Shown piece by piece: positions 43,259 to 52,310 of a stretch of 64,000 bases of DNA (positions are counted from its first letter, which is position 1; every line of letters starts with the position of its first letter). The notes beneath the pieces are model-generated. The model worked only from the letters and a program-made list of their open reading frames with translations, had not been told where the DNA came from and ran no database searches. This DNA comes from Methylococcales bacterium. GTDB lineage: Bacteria > Pseudomonadota > Gammaproteobacteria > Methylococcales > Methylomonadaceae. The position numbers were made by a program, and so were the translations under genes. Location: positions 1 to 64,000 of the forward strand of contig JAURYI010000058.1 of assembly GCA_030654015.1 (NCBI GenBank). Direction: 5' to 3'.

Positions 43259-44938
43259 TTAATCCACCTGATAAGCAACACAAAATTGAATATCGCCTTC
43301 TTTACGACGCAATAAACCTTTCAAACCCAATGCTGAAATCGCCGATTTTATCGTTGCCGACTTTTCATAATTGTCCTGAATTTTTCGCGCCTCATCATGA
43401 TCCGCACGATACATTTGTTGAGCTAATTTATGTAAGCCATGCGCCAAATTCAACGTAATAGACAAGGACACGGTGTTATCGGCAATCTCACCGAATGCCG
43501 ATGATAGTGCGGCTCTTGTGATACGGACATTAATTTTTTCCTTTGTGCCATTCAAATCCGCTTGCTGTATATAATAAGTAAATAAACAATTATCAACATA
43601 TAATATGGATGGTTCAATCGACCAGCGAAAAAATATATCCTGCTGGTTTTCAATTTTAAAATCAGTTTGTGTAAATAAAACAGCCAATGCGATTAATTCA
43701 TTTTGCAACACGCTATTGTCTTTTATTTCAATCCAGCCATAAGGATGAAAAATAATATCTTCGCTGTGAGAGCTAAATATAAAGCCGCGATTATGTGCCG
43801 CCAAACCCCATAAAATAGCCTGTTGCCTTGCTGTTAAACACAAATCAATTATTTTTTCCTTACCCAATGTCCCTGCATATAATGGTTTATCAGTATGTTG
43901 TAATAAGGTTATCCCATATTTATGCGGCTTAAATAAATAACCGCTGGTAAAACTATCGGATAACACCATCAATTCCTTTTTTAACGCAGCTCTATCCTTA
44001 TTAAAATCGTTAACCAACGCTTCGATATACGCCATTTTACCATCGGCTGTTATGCCTTTTTCTATTTCATCCAACGAAAACCAAACCAAACGATTATCGG
44101 CTGTTATTTTATCGTGTAAATGAATATAACCGGCCAGCGTCAACTTAATATGAAAAACATCCAGATAATATTCAGTAAACGCATGATTAGGCGCAGAACC
44201 CTGAACCTGCCGATACGGCTTTAAACTACGCCACAAGGTAAATGTATAATGAGTATCAAAAATTAATCCCGCTTCTTCCTTTAATTCCCGTTTTAAAGTC
44301 TCAGGCAATACGGCTTTAATATCACTATTACTGGACTGCACAGCCTGCAAACACCGATTTTTATTATCAGTAAAACCGACAATATCACGCTGATTTAACC
44401 GCCCGCCAACCAAACCATAATCCCCTGCTGTTTTATCAAAGCGTTTATGGGTATCTTCCCGTTGATAAAATAAAATCTTATCATTCAGTTTAATAATACT
44501 CCACGCCACATAAATATAACGAATCGGCGGCGCGTCACCACTCGCATGATAGTCAACCCGATTAGATTCAATATATCTTAATAAATCCCGCTGTGCATTT
44601 TTCTTATCATCCGCAATCCCTTGAGTATTCCAAAAATTATCCGCCAACAACCGAGATTCTTTATCACTCATTGCCGTTAATACCGACAACGCTAATAACT
44701 GCGCAGGAAAAGAAATAAAACACCATTCGCCTTTTTGCAAAGAATCAGTATTTAATACTGCCAAAGTATCCAGCAAGTTTTCAATTAAATTAACAGTATT
44801 TTCAGCAACAGCCTGATTAACTTGTTCTGAACACAGCACGTTAATTAAATCCTCACGTTTAACCGCGTAAAAATCGCCTTCTTCTTCGGCGTAGCGAGGT
44901 AAATAAGTAATAAGGGTTTTAATTAGCTGTGCCGACAT
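43259..44938 (-). CDS. Large (559 aa) Nudix-domain protein
   Basis: LVGGRLNQRD...ETLKRELKEEAGLIF; RExxEExG catalytic core at 44267..44290. Confidence 0.75.
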   Translation of the reverse strand: MSAQLIKTLITYLPRYAEEEGDFYAVKREDLINVLCSEQVNQAVAENTVNLIENLLDTLAVLNTDSLQKGEWCFISFPAQLLALSVLTAMSDKESRLLADNFWNTQGIADDKKNAQRDLLRYIESNRVDYHASGDAPPIRYIYVAWSIIKLNDKILFYQREDTHKRFDKTAGDYGLVGGRLNQRDIVGFTDNKNRCLQAVQSSNSDIKAVLPETLKRELKEEAGLIFDTHYTFTLWRSLKPYRQVQGSAPNHAFTEYYLDVFHIKLTLAGYIHLHDKITADNRLVWFSLDEIEKGITADGKMAYIEALVNDFNKDRAALKKELMVLSDSFTSGYLFKPHKYGITLLQHTDKPLYAGTLGKEKIIDLCLTARQQAILWGLAAHNRGFIFSSHSEDIIFHPYGWIEIKDNSVLQNELIALAVLFTQTDFKIENQQDIFFRWSIEPSILYVDNCLFTYYIQQADLNGTKEKINVRITRAALSSAFGEIADNTVSLSITLNLAHGLHKLAQQMYRADHDEARKIQDNYEKSATIKSAISALGLKGLLRRKEGDIQFCVAYQVD

Positions 44939-44950
44939 TATTTATAACCT

Positions 44951-45475
44951 TTATTTTGCATTTTTCTCTACGTCACTAATGATTTCAGCTAAAAAAGCAG
45001 CGCGAATGTGTAAACTGGTTTGAGTTGGAATAGCGCGTAATAATTCCAATACTTCCGATTTTGAACGGGTTTGTTGACGGATAGCGCGGACTAAAACACC
45101 AAGCGTACCATGCGCAGTTACACCGAGGTTTTTTGCCGCAAGTTTGGCGGCGGTATCATCCGTCAAAAACAAGCTATTTTTAAATTCTAAGCATAAATGC
45201 AACGCTTCCTGCTCACCTGCGTGTAAAGTATAAAATGGGGTTAGTGCATTGACTTGTGGAGAAAAGTATTCAGCGCGGTGACGAATTAAATTCACTTTTG
45301 TATGAAGCAAGGCTTGCGGACGATGGTGTTGCACTTCATGCCAAACTGTTTCTGGAACAATTACTATGTCAAAATCAGAAATAAGTTCAAGACTATTTAA
45401 TTCATCTAAATGAATAATGGGCCCCGCATCAGCAATAACAATTGTTTTAGTCTTTTCCATGCAAGCCCCAGTCAA
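44951..45475 (-). CDS. PIN-domain (DUF3368-like) putative ribonuclease toxin
   Basis: IVIADAGPIIHL...IVPETVWHEV...LTDDTAAKLAAKNLGV. Confidence 0.8.
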   Translation of the reverse strand: MTGACMEKTKTIVIADAGPIIHLDELNSLELISDFDIVIVPETVWHEVQHHRPQALLHTKVNLIRHRAEYFSPQVNALTPFYTLHAGEQEALHLCLEFKNSLFLTDDTAAKLAAKNLGVTAHGTLGVLVRAIRQQTRSKSEVLELLRAIPTQTSLHIRAAFLAEIISDVEKNAK

Positions 45476-45644
45476 TATCTTCTCGAATCAACTGCTCATT
45501 AATAATTTGTTGGTGTGATTCTAAATAGCGGCGCATGGCTTCTATAATTAGCGCATCCATATTAACAATCCAACCTTGCTCAACCATATTTTGTGCTTGC
45601 TGCCAAAGTTGATCGGGTATTTCAGTTTTTACAAGTGTAGTCAT
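45447..45644 (-). CDS. Ribbon-helix-helix-like putative antitoxin
   Basis: 65 aa; VKTEIPDQLWQQAQNMVEQGWIVNMDALIIEAMRRYLES; overlaps the start of the PIN gene. Confidence 0.65.
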   Translation of the reverse strand: MTTLVKTEIPDQLWQQAQNMVEQGWIVNMDALIIEAMRRYLESHQQIINEQLIREDIDWGLHGKD

Positions 45645-45655
45645 GATAATTAGCC

Positions 45656-46993
45656 TTATGAAAAACTACGGCTATAAATATGCCGTGCTAATTCAAATAG
45701 ATAAGGTGCTTTTTTACGGTAATCAAACTCTTCAAACGTTATTTCTACTTTTCCCATTCTTACATCTACACGAGGATAAGAGTTAATTAGCCAAAACATT
45801 TGATAAAGTAATTTATCCAATAATACTTTGTCTTTTCTAAGCTCTGAGTTACTTTCCTGAATATTATTGGCTAATGCAGGGAAGCGAAACGCATCTTTAA
45901 TAATTTTTTCGCTGGCTACCTTGTTTTGAAGGTTGCAATAAGCCTTTTTAATGTCCAGAGCAATTAACTTATTTTTATTTTGATTTTCAAAAGTTTCTTT
46001 TGTTAAATTCTCACCAGAAAACAGTTTAAATAGTATTTCTTCGTAAGTTTTCTTTACCTCGTAAAAATTAAACATAATTCGCATATTAATCATAAATAAA
46101 TAAGCGATTATTTGTTCATCAACGGCATTAAATACGGTTGAATTATGGGTTATCCAGTTACGAGTGCTTTTCATAATCCACGCTAAACCTCTTATTTTTT
46201 TCGGTTCTGTTGCTTCCCATTCGTGCGTTAATGTTCTGATAAAGAGTTTGTACAAGGTCGATTTATCAACTGGTTCACGCAAGGGTAAAAAATTGGCTAA
46301 CACGTCTAAATAATTATGGCTATCTTCAAGGCTAATTTTCTTTTCAGATTCTTCAATAAAGCTATTAAATAACAGTTTATTTTCAGCATTAATGAAGTTT
46401 TTTAAACTGTGACAAGCTTCAATAATTCCACGCCTTAATATTGCATAAGAGGATTGTTGTGCTGTTAGCCAATCTCTTAATTTTATATAATCTGCATCTA
46501 TTTTTTCAAAAACAGTGACTTTCGGCATATAAATTTCAGTACACTTATTTTCAAATCCTTTTACTGTGCTAGTTTCCGCAGTCATAAAGCACATTATCTC
46601 GGCAGGTATACCTAAATGAATTAAATCATTAAAAATATAAAATCCTCCATTTTCGTGAAATTTTCTTTTATCGGTGTAATATTCTGGAATATCTTTGTCT
46701 AAATCAACGTGTTCGCCATTGTCTAAACGAACGTCAATAATAATGGCATCAATTTCATTGAGAATGGCATGATTTTCTTTAAATTCTTCATAATCAAAAT
46801 AATTACGGCATAAATAAATGGTATGCAGACTTTTTTGTTGTGTGCAAAATTCATTTAAATCAGATGGCTTCGTTTTCAGGCTAAATAAGTCATTATCCCA
46901 CGCATCAAAACTTAATAAATTACCAAACATTTGATTTAAAATATTTTTTCCTGCTTGCAAACCGCCAAAGTCTTCAATCCAAAGTATATTCAT
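45656..46993 (-). CDS. Receiver-like domain protein with C-terminal HEPN-like region
   Basis: Receiver residues ILWIED / IIIDVRL / CFMTAET / FEKID; C-terminal RNWITH (RNxxxH) at 46145..46162. Confidence 0.65.
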   Translation of the reverse strand: MNILWIEDFGGLQAGKNILNQMFGNLLSFDAWDNDLFSLKTKPSDLNEFCTQQKSLHTIYLCRNYFDYEEFKENHAILNEIDAIIIDVRLDNGEHVDLDKDIPEYYTDKRKFHENGGFYIFNDLIHLGIPAEIMCFMTAETSTVKGFENKCTEIYMPKVTVFEKIDADYIKLRDWLTAQQSSYAILRRGIIEACHSLKNFINAENKLLFNSFIEESEKKISLEDSHNYLDVLANFLPLREPVDKSTLYKLFIRTLTHEWEATEPKKIRGLAWIMKSTRNWITHNSTVFNAVDEQIIAYLFMINMRIMFNFYEVKKTYEEILFKLFSGENLTKETFENQNKNKLIALDIKKAYCNLQNKVASEKIIKDAFRFPALANNIQESNSELRKDKVLLDKLLYQMFWLINSYPRVDVRMGKVEITFEEFDYRKKAPYLFELARHIYSRSFS

Positions 46994-46996
46994 ATT

Positions 46997-48406
46997 TTAG
47001 CCTTCTAATAAGTTTTTATGGAGTTTTAATTCTGCGCTAAACAGTTGTTCATTTGCAGTGCAATTAAATTGAGCGTGTTCGCCTAATAATTCAATCAGGC
47101 GATTAATAAAAGCAAGTCCTTTATGTGTGCCAGCTAGTTGGCTGTTAGCATTAGCTTTGCAAGCATTGCTGACGCTGAAAATGTAATATTCTGCATCTAT
47201 ATACCAATTAATTTGAATTTTTCCTGTGCCGCCCCAGTATTTTAAAGCATTAAGGATTAATTCTGAGCTGATAGCAAACATCAGTGAGAATTTAATTTGA
47301 TTTGCGCCAAATTGCGCGGTACTTTTTTCAATATTGACTTCAAGCGCGGTTATGGATTGAAGCCAATGATAGAACTTTTCTACATCTTTTTGATTTACGT
47401 CCAACGGTAAAACCTGTTCAATAAAGGCTTTGCGGGTGGGTTTAATTAATTCGCCTTGATTGTTTATCAGTTTGCGTAAACCTGTGGCATCCTCCATAAA
47501 GATGATACGGTTGAGTGATTGGCGCAAAGCTGAGGCAATAAACCATTCAGGCGTTGCATCACCTGCGTTGTCTTGTTGCCAAGCGCGTTTAAATTCTTCG
47601 GTATCGTAAATGGATTGTTTAAAGGTATCTATTAAACAATCGGTTAAGGTGATGGTTGAGAATAAAGCGGCAATTTCGTTAATCGCTTCATAATGTTTTT
47701 GATTTTTTTCGTAGTCTTCGCTACCTAATAAACGAATGGCTTGTCTGAGAGATTCGGGGGCGGTTGCGAGGGCATTACGCATGGTGTGGGTGAAGAAAGA
47801 GAGCATTTCTTTTTCTTTTTCGTGTGCTATTTTATTAGCTTTTTTTGTTTCTTCTATTTGTAACTCAATCTTTTCTGCATTATAAATTGATTTTAAATAA
47901 TCTTTTTTATACTCTATTTCTATAGTGTCTTCCATGCTATCATCATTATAAATATAAAATGCTTTATTAATATATTCTTCTGCTTTTTCATATTTGTTAT
48001 TTGAAACAGAGACGTTACTTGCCAAAATATAAAATAGCTTTTTATGCTCTTCTGAATCAGAAAACTTAGCAAGAAGATAGTATTCGTTATTTTCGGATTC
48101 TTCACAATCATTGTTACTTAATTTATTAGCTATATTAAAATCTTCGTTAGCTTTTGTAAAGTCACGCAGATTTAGATAACAGTTTCCACGCTTTATATAA
48201 GCTTCGCAATTATTAGGCTCTTGTTCAATAGCCTTATTAAAGCAATACAAAGCAGTTTTCCACTCTTCTTGCTCATAAAAATTTAATCCAAGCTCATAAT
48301 TATCAAAATCACAATTTGTTTCGATACTTTTTACTTTCCCTTTTTCATCCAAATTAACCTGTATATAAGGTTTTGTCGCTGTTTTTTCTTTTTCATGATT
48401 TTTCAT
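46997..48406 (-). CDS. Soluble TPR-repeat histidine kinase
   Basis: TPR GLNFYEQEEWKTALYCFNKAIEQEPNN; H-box FFTHTMRNAL (His codon 47786..47788); N-box ELILNALKYW; HKGLAFINRLIELLG. Confidence 0.8.
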   Translation of the reverse strand: MKNHEKEKTATKPYIQVNLDEKGKVKSIETNCDFDNYELGLNFYEQEEWKTALYCFNKAIEQEPNNCEAYIKRGNCYLNLRDFTKANEDFNIANKLSNNDCEESENNEYYLLAKFSDSEEHKKLFYILASNVSVSNNKYEKAEEYINKAFYIYNDDSMEDTIEIEYKKDYLKSIYNAEKIELQIEETKKANKIAHEKEKEMLSFFTHTMRNALATAPESLRQAIRLLGSEDYEKNQKHYEAINEIAALFSTITLTDCLIDTFKQSIYDTEEFKRAWQQDNAGDATPEWFIASALRQSLNRIIFMEDATGLRKLINNQGELIKPTRKAFIEQVLPLDVNQKDVEKFYHWLQSITALEVNIEKSTAQFGANQIKFSLMFAISSELILNALKYWGGTGKIQINWYIDAEYYIFSVSNACKANANSQLAGTHKGLAFINRLIELLGEHAQFNCTANEQLFSAELKLHKNLLEG

Positions 48407-48459: not shown

Positions 48460-48933
48460 TTAGAACCGATGCCATCCAGAACCACCGCATTTACGACAAT
48501 CAACTTCAAAATCTCCGCTGCCGTCACATTTACTGCATGGCACAGTAAATGTTCCTTTACCACTGCATCTTCGGCATTCAACTTCTTTGATGTAATTTCC
48601 TGTCCCATTGCAACGATTACATGATTTTGAATTGCGCGTTCCAGTACTCTGACAGGATAAACAAGGCTTTGCTGGTAATTTGAAAATTCCAGTCCCCTCA
48701 CAATTTCGACACGTCCCCGTAAAAGTACCCGTACTATCGCATTTTTTGCAATCAAACGTCTTTTTTCCTGAGCCATTACAACTAAAGCACGTTCCATAGC
48801 TGTTAATTGGGCTAATGCAGTTTTTGAACGTAGTTCTGACACGATTTTGGTCACGTTTAGCGCGGTGGCTGTAATTGTTTCTTTCAAATAACGCGCCAAG
48901 TAACGTAAAAAAAAGTCCCATAAAAAGCCTCAT
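48460..48933 (-). CDS. CxxCxGxG (DnaJ zinc-finger-like) repeat protein without J domain
   Basis: About eight CxxCxxxG units: CFSCNGSG, CKKCDSTG, CRNCEGTG, CLSCQSTG, CNRCNGTG, CRRCSGKG, CSKCDGSG, CRKCGGSG. Confidence 0.75.
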   Translation of the reverse strand: MRLFMGLFFTLLGALFERNNYSHRAKRDQNRVRTTFKNCISPINSYGTCFSCNGSGKKTFDCKKCDSTGTFTGTCRNCEGTGIFKLPAKPCLSCQSTGTRNSKSCNRCNGTGNYIKEVECRRCSGKGTFTVPCSKCDGSGDFEVDCRKCGGSGWHRF

Positions 48934-49048: not shown

Positions 49049-49162
49049 TTATAGAATAGAAAGTGCCACCCAAATTCCAATAAAAATATATAAAGGTGCG
49101 CCAATGTCGGCTATAACGTTTGCTACCGTAAAAACTGCTAGTACGCCTACTACGATTTTCAT
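49049..49162 (-). CDS. 37-aa hydrophobic microprotein (not in the ORF track)
   Basis: MKIVVGVLAVFTVANVIADIGAPLYIFIGIWVALSIL*; its ATG overlaps the upstream ParB-like stop (TGATG). Confidence 0.5.
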   Translation of the reverse strand: MKIVVGVLAVFTVANVIADIGAPLYIFIGIWVALSIL

Positions 49163-49680
49163 CAATGTTTCCTTGTTTGTTTTGAAGTTGGGTATAGCTT
49201 AGCCCTTTGTGTTTCGAGTCTAAACAGAGTGAATCGGTTGCGCTGGTCTTCGTCGGTTTCCAGCCACGCTTTATGCTGTTTGGCTATCGCTGAAAATAGC
49301 GGGGCTTTGGGTAAGCCTTGCAGACTCATTAGGTCGGTGACGCTGCGGGGTTTGCCTGTGTCTATTTTGCCGAATGCGGCTTCGTCTTCTATGCCTTTGA
49401 TGATGACGGTTTGAAAGGCTTTGCCTGTGTTGACACACGCGGTTAGGCGGTGTTGTCCATCGAGTAAGCGTCCCGATTTTGAAAAGGCGATGGTTTCGCC
49501 ATTGAGCATCCATTCATCATTTTTTAGTGCGGTGCTGAGCATTTTGACGTGCGCGGGTTTTAACGGGCGGTTGTCGTGGTTGGTGGTGGCTAGCAGATGT
49601 TTTGCCAGTTCGGGGGTGATTTGTGCCACGCCTGTTTGTATGCTGGTTGTTATGAATTCGATTGTGTCCATTTTCATCAC
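49162..49680 (-). CDS. ParB-like nuclease-domain protein
   Basis: LKPAHVKMLSTALKNDEWMLNGETIAFSKSGRLLDGQHRLTACVNTGKAF. Confidence 0.65.
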   Translation of the reverse strand: MMKMDTIEFITTSIQTGVAQITPELAKHLLATTNHDNRPLKPAHVKMLSTALKNDEWMLNGETIAFSKSGRLLDGQHRLTACVNTGKAFQTVIIKGIEDEAAFGKIDTGKPRSVTDLMSLQGLPKAPLFSAIAKQHKAWLETDEDQRNRFTLFRLETQRAKLYPTSKQTRKH

Positions 49681-51278: not shown

Positions 51279-52310
51279 TTATTTTATTTTTACTACTGTT
51301 CCCGTATCCAACCATTGGCTTAGATGATCGATTTGAGTGTTAGTCAAGGCGATACAACCATGCGTCCAGTCAAATGCTTGGTGAACTCTTTCGTCCCCCG
51401 CACCTATACCATGTATGCCTATTTGCCCACCTAATGGTGTATTTTGTGGCGGTATCTGGTTAGATTGATGCGCGGTAACAATGCTGTAATAGTCAGTTTG
51501 ACTAATTACACCACGCTTCAATGCGATTTCCGCATCTTGCGTAGACGGATAGGTTAAACCAAAAAATTTACGAAAATTACTTTTTTCGCCAACCCAGCCA
51601 ATTCTATAATTACCGTAGGGCGTAATATCATCACCACGATGCCCTTTTAAGCCTGCGCCTTTTCGCCCGATGGCAATGCCACTGAGCGTTTCCAGCGTCT
51701 GCTCACCTTGTTTTACTTCAATTTTATGTGCTTTGGTGTCCACTAACAACCAAATAGAGCTATCTGCATAACTCGGAACATGACTGCTTACACTCGCAGG
51801 TGTATTACTGCTCACAGTCGCAGGTTTATAAACACTCACATTCGCGGGTACATGACTGCTTACAGCCGCAGGTGCATAACTACTTACTACGCTCGCGGGT
51901 GTATGACTCATCACACTAGCAGGTTTATAAACACTTACATTCACGGGTGTATGACTGCTTACAGCCGCAGGTGCATAACTACTTACTACGCTTGCGGGTG
52001 TATTACTCATCACACTAGCAGGTTTATAACCGCTCACATTCGCGGGTACATGACTGCTTACAGCCGCAGGTGCATAACTGCTTACTACGCTCGCGGGTGT
52101 ATTACTCATCACACTAGCAGGTTTATAACCGCTCACACTCGCGGGTGCATGACTGCTTACAGTCGCAGGTTTATAACCGCTTACATTCGCAGGCGCGTAA
52201 TTACTGACACTCGCAGGTGTACGACCGAATAAATTTGCTGGAACACGGCTGTCCGCATTCACCGCAAAAGAGAAAAAACCACAACATAATAATATACAAA
52301 ATCGTAACAT
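51279..52310 (-). CDS. YkuD L,D-transpeptidase with an N-terminal repeat region
   Basis: IGIHGIGAGDERVHQAFDWTHGCIAL catalytic motif; Sec signal; Pro/Ser/Ala/Val repeats. Confidence 0.92.
   Translation of the reverse strand: MLRFCILLCCGFFSFAVNADSRVPANLFGRTPASVSNYAPANVSGYKPATVSSHAPASVSGYKPASVMSNTPASVVSSYAPAAVSSHVPANVSGYKPASVMSNTPASVVSSYAPAAVSSHTPVNVSVYKPASVMSHTPASVVSSYAPAAVSSHVPANVSVYKPATVSSNTPASVSSHVPSYADSSIWLLVDTKAHKIEVKQGEQTLETLSGIAIGRKGAGLKGHRGDDITPYGNYRIGWVGEKSNFRKFFGLTYPSTQDAEIALKRGVISQTDYYSIVTAHQSNQIPPQNTPLGGQIGIHGIGAGDERVHQAFDWTHGCIALTNTQIDHLSQWLDTGTVVKIK
51780..52230. repeat. Tandem in-frame repeat encoding SSYAPAAVSSHVPANVSGYKPASVMSNTPASVV-type units
   Basis: Approximately 24-bp subunits within ~99-bp higher-order repeats. 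Confidence 0.88.

Follow-up and report, generated by a model that had tools for sequence, protein, structure and literature searches.

A receiver protein with a conserved R-N-x3-H motif and its cognate histidine kinase in Methylomonadaceae: a candidate phosphorylation-gated HEPN-type ribonuclease

In the window (the whole stretch of 64,000 nucleotides analyzed, from a Methylococcales bacterium), one gene encodes a protein in which a receiver domain is followed by a helical C-terminal domain with the motif R278-N-W-I-T-H283, next to the gene of a TPR-sensor histidine kinase (Table 1). Among the homologous loci, the kinase/receiver pair is conserved and the motif-bearing helical output domain behaves as a swappable module. 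We propose that the protein is a phosphorylation-gated HEPN-type ribonuclease, i.e., that in this soluble two-component system, serving defense or stress, the regulator is itself the effector and not a transcription factor, and we put the probability of this reading at roughly 0.6. A broader proposal stands at even odds: that these proteins form a new class of response regulators, in which the phosphorylated receiver directly activates a HEPN ribonuclease, and that sensor kinase, receiver-RNase and NUDIX enzyme constitute a modular immune or abortive-infection system of methanotrophs with exchangeable toxin–antitoxin cargo.

Table 1. Features of the regulator locus (positions are those of the window)
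Feature	Position	Strand	Basis or remark
Receiver + HEPN-like protein	45656..46993	minus	445 aa, ATG start, coordinates include the stop codon; 51 distinct homologues
Receiver domain, residues 1–165	46499..46993	minus	Invariant residues, PDB receiver matches, AlphaFold model
D8 codon	46970–46972	minus	Receiver domain
Phospho-acceptor D87 codon	46733–46735	minus	Receiver domain
T138 codon	46580–46582	minus	Receiver domain
K164 codon	46502–46504	minus	Receiver domain
HEPN-like helical core, residues 166–330	46004..46498	minus	AlphaFold model of residues 166–445 (47 sequences), pLDDT 88.6, pTM 0.89
Second conserved polar set, R253...H257	46223..46237	minus	R253 51/51, H257 50/51
R278-N-W-I-T-H283 motif (R-N-x3-H)	46145..46162	minus	R and H 51/51, N 50/51; helix end before loop
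C-terminal helical extension, residues 331–445	45659..46003	minus	Conserved ARHIYxRSF tail at its end; S443 and F444 48/50
TPR-sensor histidine kinase, 469 aa	46997..48406	minus	TPR_2 5e-11; stop codon 3 bp upstream of the receiver gene
Kinase phospho-acceptor H207 codon (FFTHTMRN)	47786..47788	minus	38/38 loci
Kinase N-box (ELILNALKY)	47237..47263	minus	E382, N386, K389 and Y390 in 38/38 loci
Kinase G2 box (GTHKG)	47117..47131	minus	Last Gly, G430, in 38/38 loci
Antitoxin-like ORF before the PIN gene, 65 aa	45447..45644	minus	Read from the sequence
PIN-domain toxin-like gene	44951..45460	minus	PADLOC PDC-S70 4e-23; ORF list start at 45475, ATG at 45460
NUDIX-domain protein, 559 aa, conserved downstream partner	43259..44938	minus	PF00293 8e-5; co-occurrence

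The receiver domain

The reading frame is real and lies on the minus strand, which the first-pass annotation had left unstated; the plus strand over these positions is full of stops. The hallmarks on which that annotation had based its receiver claim are present and in order: E7-D8 (in WIED), D87 (in IIIDVRL), T138 (in FMTAET), and K164 (in FEKID). E7, D8, and D87 occur in 51/51 distinct homologues, as does D82, and position 138 is Ser or Thr in every one of them. K164 is found in 21/21 sequences of alignment A1 and in 44/51 of a larger automatic alignment; the shortfall looks like an effect of gap placement, with a Lys only a few residues off in at least several of the exceptions.

The regulator protein gives nothing significant in scans against Pfam, NCBIfam, PADLOC, and PHROGs. 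Against PDB sequences, the receiver profile yields 14 matches at E ≤ 1, mostly to proteins named as response regulators, CheY, or histidine kinases; all are weak, and the best of those so named is 3kht (E 0.022). The AlphaFold model of the full-length protein (pLDDT 77.8, pTM 0.83) is weak N-terminally, where pLDDT falls under 50 for parts of the stretch 30–55. With this model, Foldseek returns PorX, 3kcn, and 3luf as credible receiver matches, with probabilities of 0.90–0.97 but E values of at least 0.1. Taken together, the invariant residues, the receiver structures among the sequence and fold matches, and a co-varying cognate kinase gene bear out the receiver identity.

The upstream kinase and the exchange of output domains

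A kinase-like gene lies immediately upstream of the regulator in 38/39 homologous loci with context. The sensor parts of these kinases carry TPR in some loci and Sel1 repeats in others. Receiver identity follows kinase identity closely (Spearman 0.77; partial Mantel r 0.74 with the C-terminal domain controlled for), whereas the C-terminal domain follows the kinase weakly (partial 0.30). Single pairs of loci illustrate this: in L033 and L030 the receivers are 98% identical and the C-termini 41%, and in L090 and L078 the relation is reversed (receivers 34%, C-termini 82%). Since the receivers track the kinases and the C-termini track them poorly, output domains have been exchanged between kinase–receiver types, a pattern as expected for a sensor-kinase–receiver module with exchangeable outputs.

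The R-N-x3-H motif and the C-terminal domain

The motif RNWITH lies exactly where the first-pass annotation had placed it (residues 278–283). Conservation of its R and H, named there beforehand as one of two points on which the ribonuclease claim would turn, is complete: across homologues down to ∼23% identity both residues are invariant, N279 is replaced in a single sequence, and W280, R187, and R305 are likewise found in 51/51. The mean column identity of the homologue alignment is ∼30%. In shuffled C-terminal regions, the strict R-N-x3-H appears in 2.1% and the loose Rx4-6H in 55%; the motif alone is thus weak evidence, and it is the invariance or near-invariance of R278, N279, and H283 that sets it beyond chance.

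In HEPN domains, the Rx4-6H motif closes a helix that leads into a loop, and a polar residue follows the R (PMC3710099). RNWxxH shows this spacing, the polar residue, and the conservation. The AlphaFold model of residues 166–445 is helical, and R278...H283 are the last residues of a helix that is followed by a loop and then by the next long helix (helix 106–118 with R113–H118 in the numbering of that model, then helices 120–123 and 128–143). Judged against the same text, this position fits the HEPN rule, which puts the motif where helix 3 runs out into the loop leading to helix 4.

Comparisons with known HEPN domains give a mixed picture. Foldseek with the full and the HEPN-only models against two libraries lists no HEPN and, receivers aside, gives noise; the C-terminal region has no match below E 0.7. 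Likewise, the HEPN-region profile finds no match among PDB sequences even at E 10. When ten HEPN regions are scanned singly against Pfam, L089, the most divergent member, matches two families and no others, HEPN_Swt1 (E 0.12) and the pEK499_p136 HEPN (E 0.13), and the two copies in an outlying genome each list one of these two families (E 0.76 and 0.34), matches in the range 0.12–0.76 that are singly not significant. Compared by hhalign with the alignments of three HEPN families and with a single pEK499_p136 sequence, the region scores a probability below 1%, which a reversed-profile control equals; the local alignment with Swt1 places TRNWxxH over IRNRWAH, at an insignificant score. In the same procedure, known HEPN families reach only 0.07%–17% against each other, and because they mostly fail it, the hhalign negative carries little weight. 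The second point named beforehand was whether the C-terminal fold matches a non-HEPN domain: the model is confident and has the motif at an HEPN-like place, and Foldseek matches the region neither to HEPN nor to any other fold. The assignment to HEPN is good but not proven, and the invariance of R278 and H283 could reflect structure or another chemistry instead.

The NUDIX partner and the surrounding locus

Most homologous loci have the NUDIX gene downstream, in the orientation of the regulator. A full-length copy is present in 14/16 genomes with the regulator versus 1/85 without it (Fisher p 3e-14, with kinship among the 101 relatives ignored). The N- and C-terminal parts of the NUDIX protein have no Pfam match.

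The genes that separate the regulator from the NUDIX gene vary and are of toxin–antitoxin or nuclease type: a PIN gene with a small partner, Phd/YefM-type genes, or Uma2 (L031, L033, L036, L038, L041, L045–L047, and others). The interval from 44938 to 45656 and its counterparts resemble an insertion hotspot. The PIN gene was considered as a core component and rejected, since other loci carry different toxin–antitoxin, Uma2, or PIN genes there. In the homologue from a Methylomonas plasmid, the position of the 65-aa ORF is annotated as ribbon-helix-helix.

Upstream of the kinase, a conserved protein of ∼195 aa without Pfam match is often encoded (e.g., L031:3815-4402, L045:9866-10426); it is absent from the window. 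There, just upstream of the kinase, 48460–48933 (minus strand) encodes 157 aa consisting mostly of CxxCxGxG DnaJ-type zinc repeats, with no J domain match. Further on, 49162–49680 (minus strand) encodes a short protein with "LDGQHRL" that belongs to phage family phrog_5931 (E 7e-39) and is probably truncated in the window, because its homologues in L037 and L043 have ∼300–320 aa. In the protein encoded at 51279–52310 (minus strand), the N-terminal half is rich in near-identical "PASVSSYAPA" repeats and the C-terminal half is different. Beside another copy of the system, L032:10227-13728 is apparently a Lamassu LmuA/LmuB/LmuC set (PADLOC matches for the neighbor set).

Distribution

Relatives of the regulator occur in 50/237 genomes of the same family (about a fifth) and in none of 398 other genomes of the phylum sample. 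The named contigs with relatives belong to Methylococcales such as Methylobacter, Methylovulum, and Methylomonas. One other gammaproteobacterial genome, an outlier, has two copies, and one copy is on a Methylomonas plasmid, annotated as "hypothetical protein." We did not observe relatives in phage records or viral contigs. The system is largely confined to Methylomonadaceae.

Discussion

The predicted sequence of events is as follows. The TPR/Sel1-repeat kinase would sense an intracellular cue and autophosphorylate at H207; the phosphoryl group would pass from H207 to D87 of the receiver, as the conserved residues and the kinase–receiver co-variation suggest. The phosphorylated receiver would then turn on the C-terminal HEPN-type domain, where the R278/N279/H283 motif, probably within a dimer, would cut RNA, with the presumed result that growth or infection is halted. 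The NUDIX protein probably serves this locus as an accessory enzyme.

Two alternatives bear on the output domain. The C-terminus may be a new all-helical domain unrelated to HEPN, its RNWxxH being coincidental or serving some other activity. The missing Foldseek and profile matches and the frequency of the loose motif in shuffled regions speak for this; on the other hand, the motif obeys the HEPN rules in closing a helix and in having a polar residue next to its R, HEPN models are what the divergent members draw, and most comparisons among the known families fail the profile test as well. We consider it improbable. Alternatively, the domain could be HEPN-like and non-catalytic: phosphorylation would govern whether it dimerizes or whether it binds RNA or some partner, for instance the NUDIX protein, and the effector would be elsewhere in the locus. 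Inactive HEPN domains are on record (PMC3710099), and the NUDIX gene is a near-constant companion. However, inactive HEPNs usually lose the R or the H, whereas here both are kept in every homologue despite the overall divergence of the alignment, alongside R253 in all and H257 in 50/51, and a non-catalytic output is, in our judgment, decidedly improbable.

A further alternative concerns the biological role and overlaps in mechanism with the gated ribonuclease: an ordinary stress or developmental two-component system, outside defense, in which regulated RNA decay tunes methanotroph physiology. The near-restriction to one family and the mostly chromosomal location agree with such a role, which we regard as possible, if on the unlikely side. 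The patchy presence, the repeated domain swaps, and the variable TPR/Sel1 sensors fit a conflict system better, as do the dense toxin–antitoxin genes, the plasmid copy, and the Lamassu-like neighbor.

If the gated-ribonuclease reading is right, phosphorelay signaling would control an RNase directly and two-component sensing would be tied to RNA destruction without transcription; response regulators would gain a class of output, and two-component immunity an effector. D87, R278, H283, and the kinase H207 offer a clean genetic test of it. The domain swapping suggests that evolution already handles the pair as two modules, sensor and output, that can be parted.

Comparison with known systems

With the HEPN RNase superfamily (Swt1-like, pEK499_p136), the regulator shares the R-N-x3-H at a helix end, the polar residue after the R, and a helical domain; it differs in that its C-terminus gives no significant profile or fold match. 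In the text of the 2013 HEPN census, the sole mention of a receiver concerns one that stands in the place of HEPN, joined to a transmembrane domain, and not a HEPN–receiver fusion (Anantharaman 2013; PMC3710099). The available portions of open-access papers treating HEPN and receiver domains describe no receiver–HEPN fusion. The abbreviations TPR, HATPase, and REC appear in a figure of predicted, unvalidated systems in PMC13092281, and a related kinase arrangement may therefore already have been predicted.

PorX (receiver–PglZ) is the top Foldseek match of the full model (E 0.11) and likewise joins a receiver to an enzymatic output whose targets are oligonucleotides, but its PglZ output has an alkaline-phosphatase-like fold and is not helical. 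PADLOC-DB 2.0.0 gives no match for the kinase or the regulator of the window. Detocs (defensive two-component system) is the closest concept. By description rather than by sequence comparison, it resembles the present system in the soluble TPR-bearing histidine kinase, the receiver–effector fusion, and the direct, non-transcriptional output. Detocs has a nucleoside phosphorylase as its main effector, and its receiver protein DtcB is a separate one. The loci analyzed here have no second receiver gene that we noticed beside them, and they combine an HEPN-like output with a NUDIX partner.
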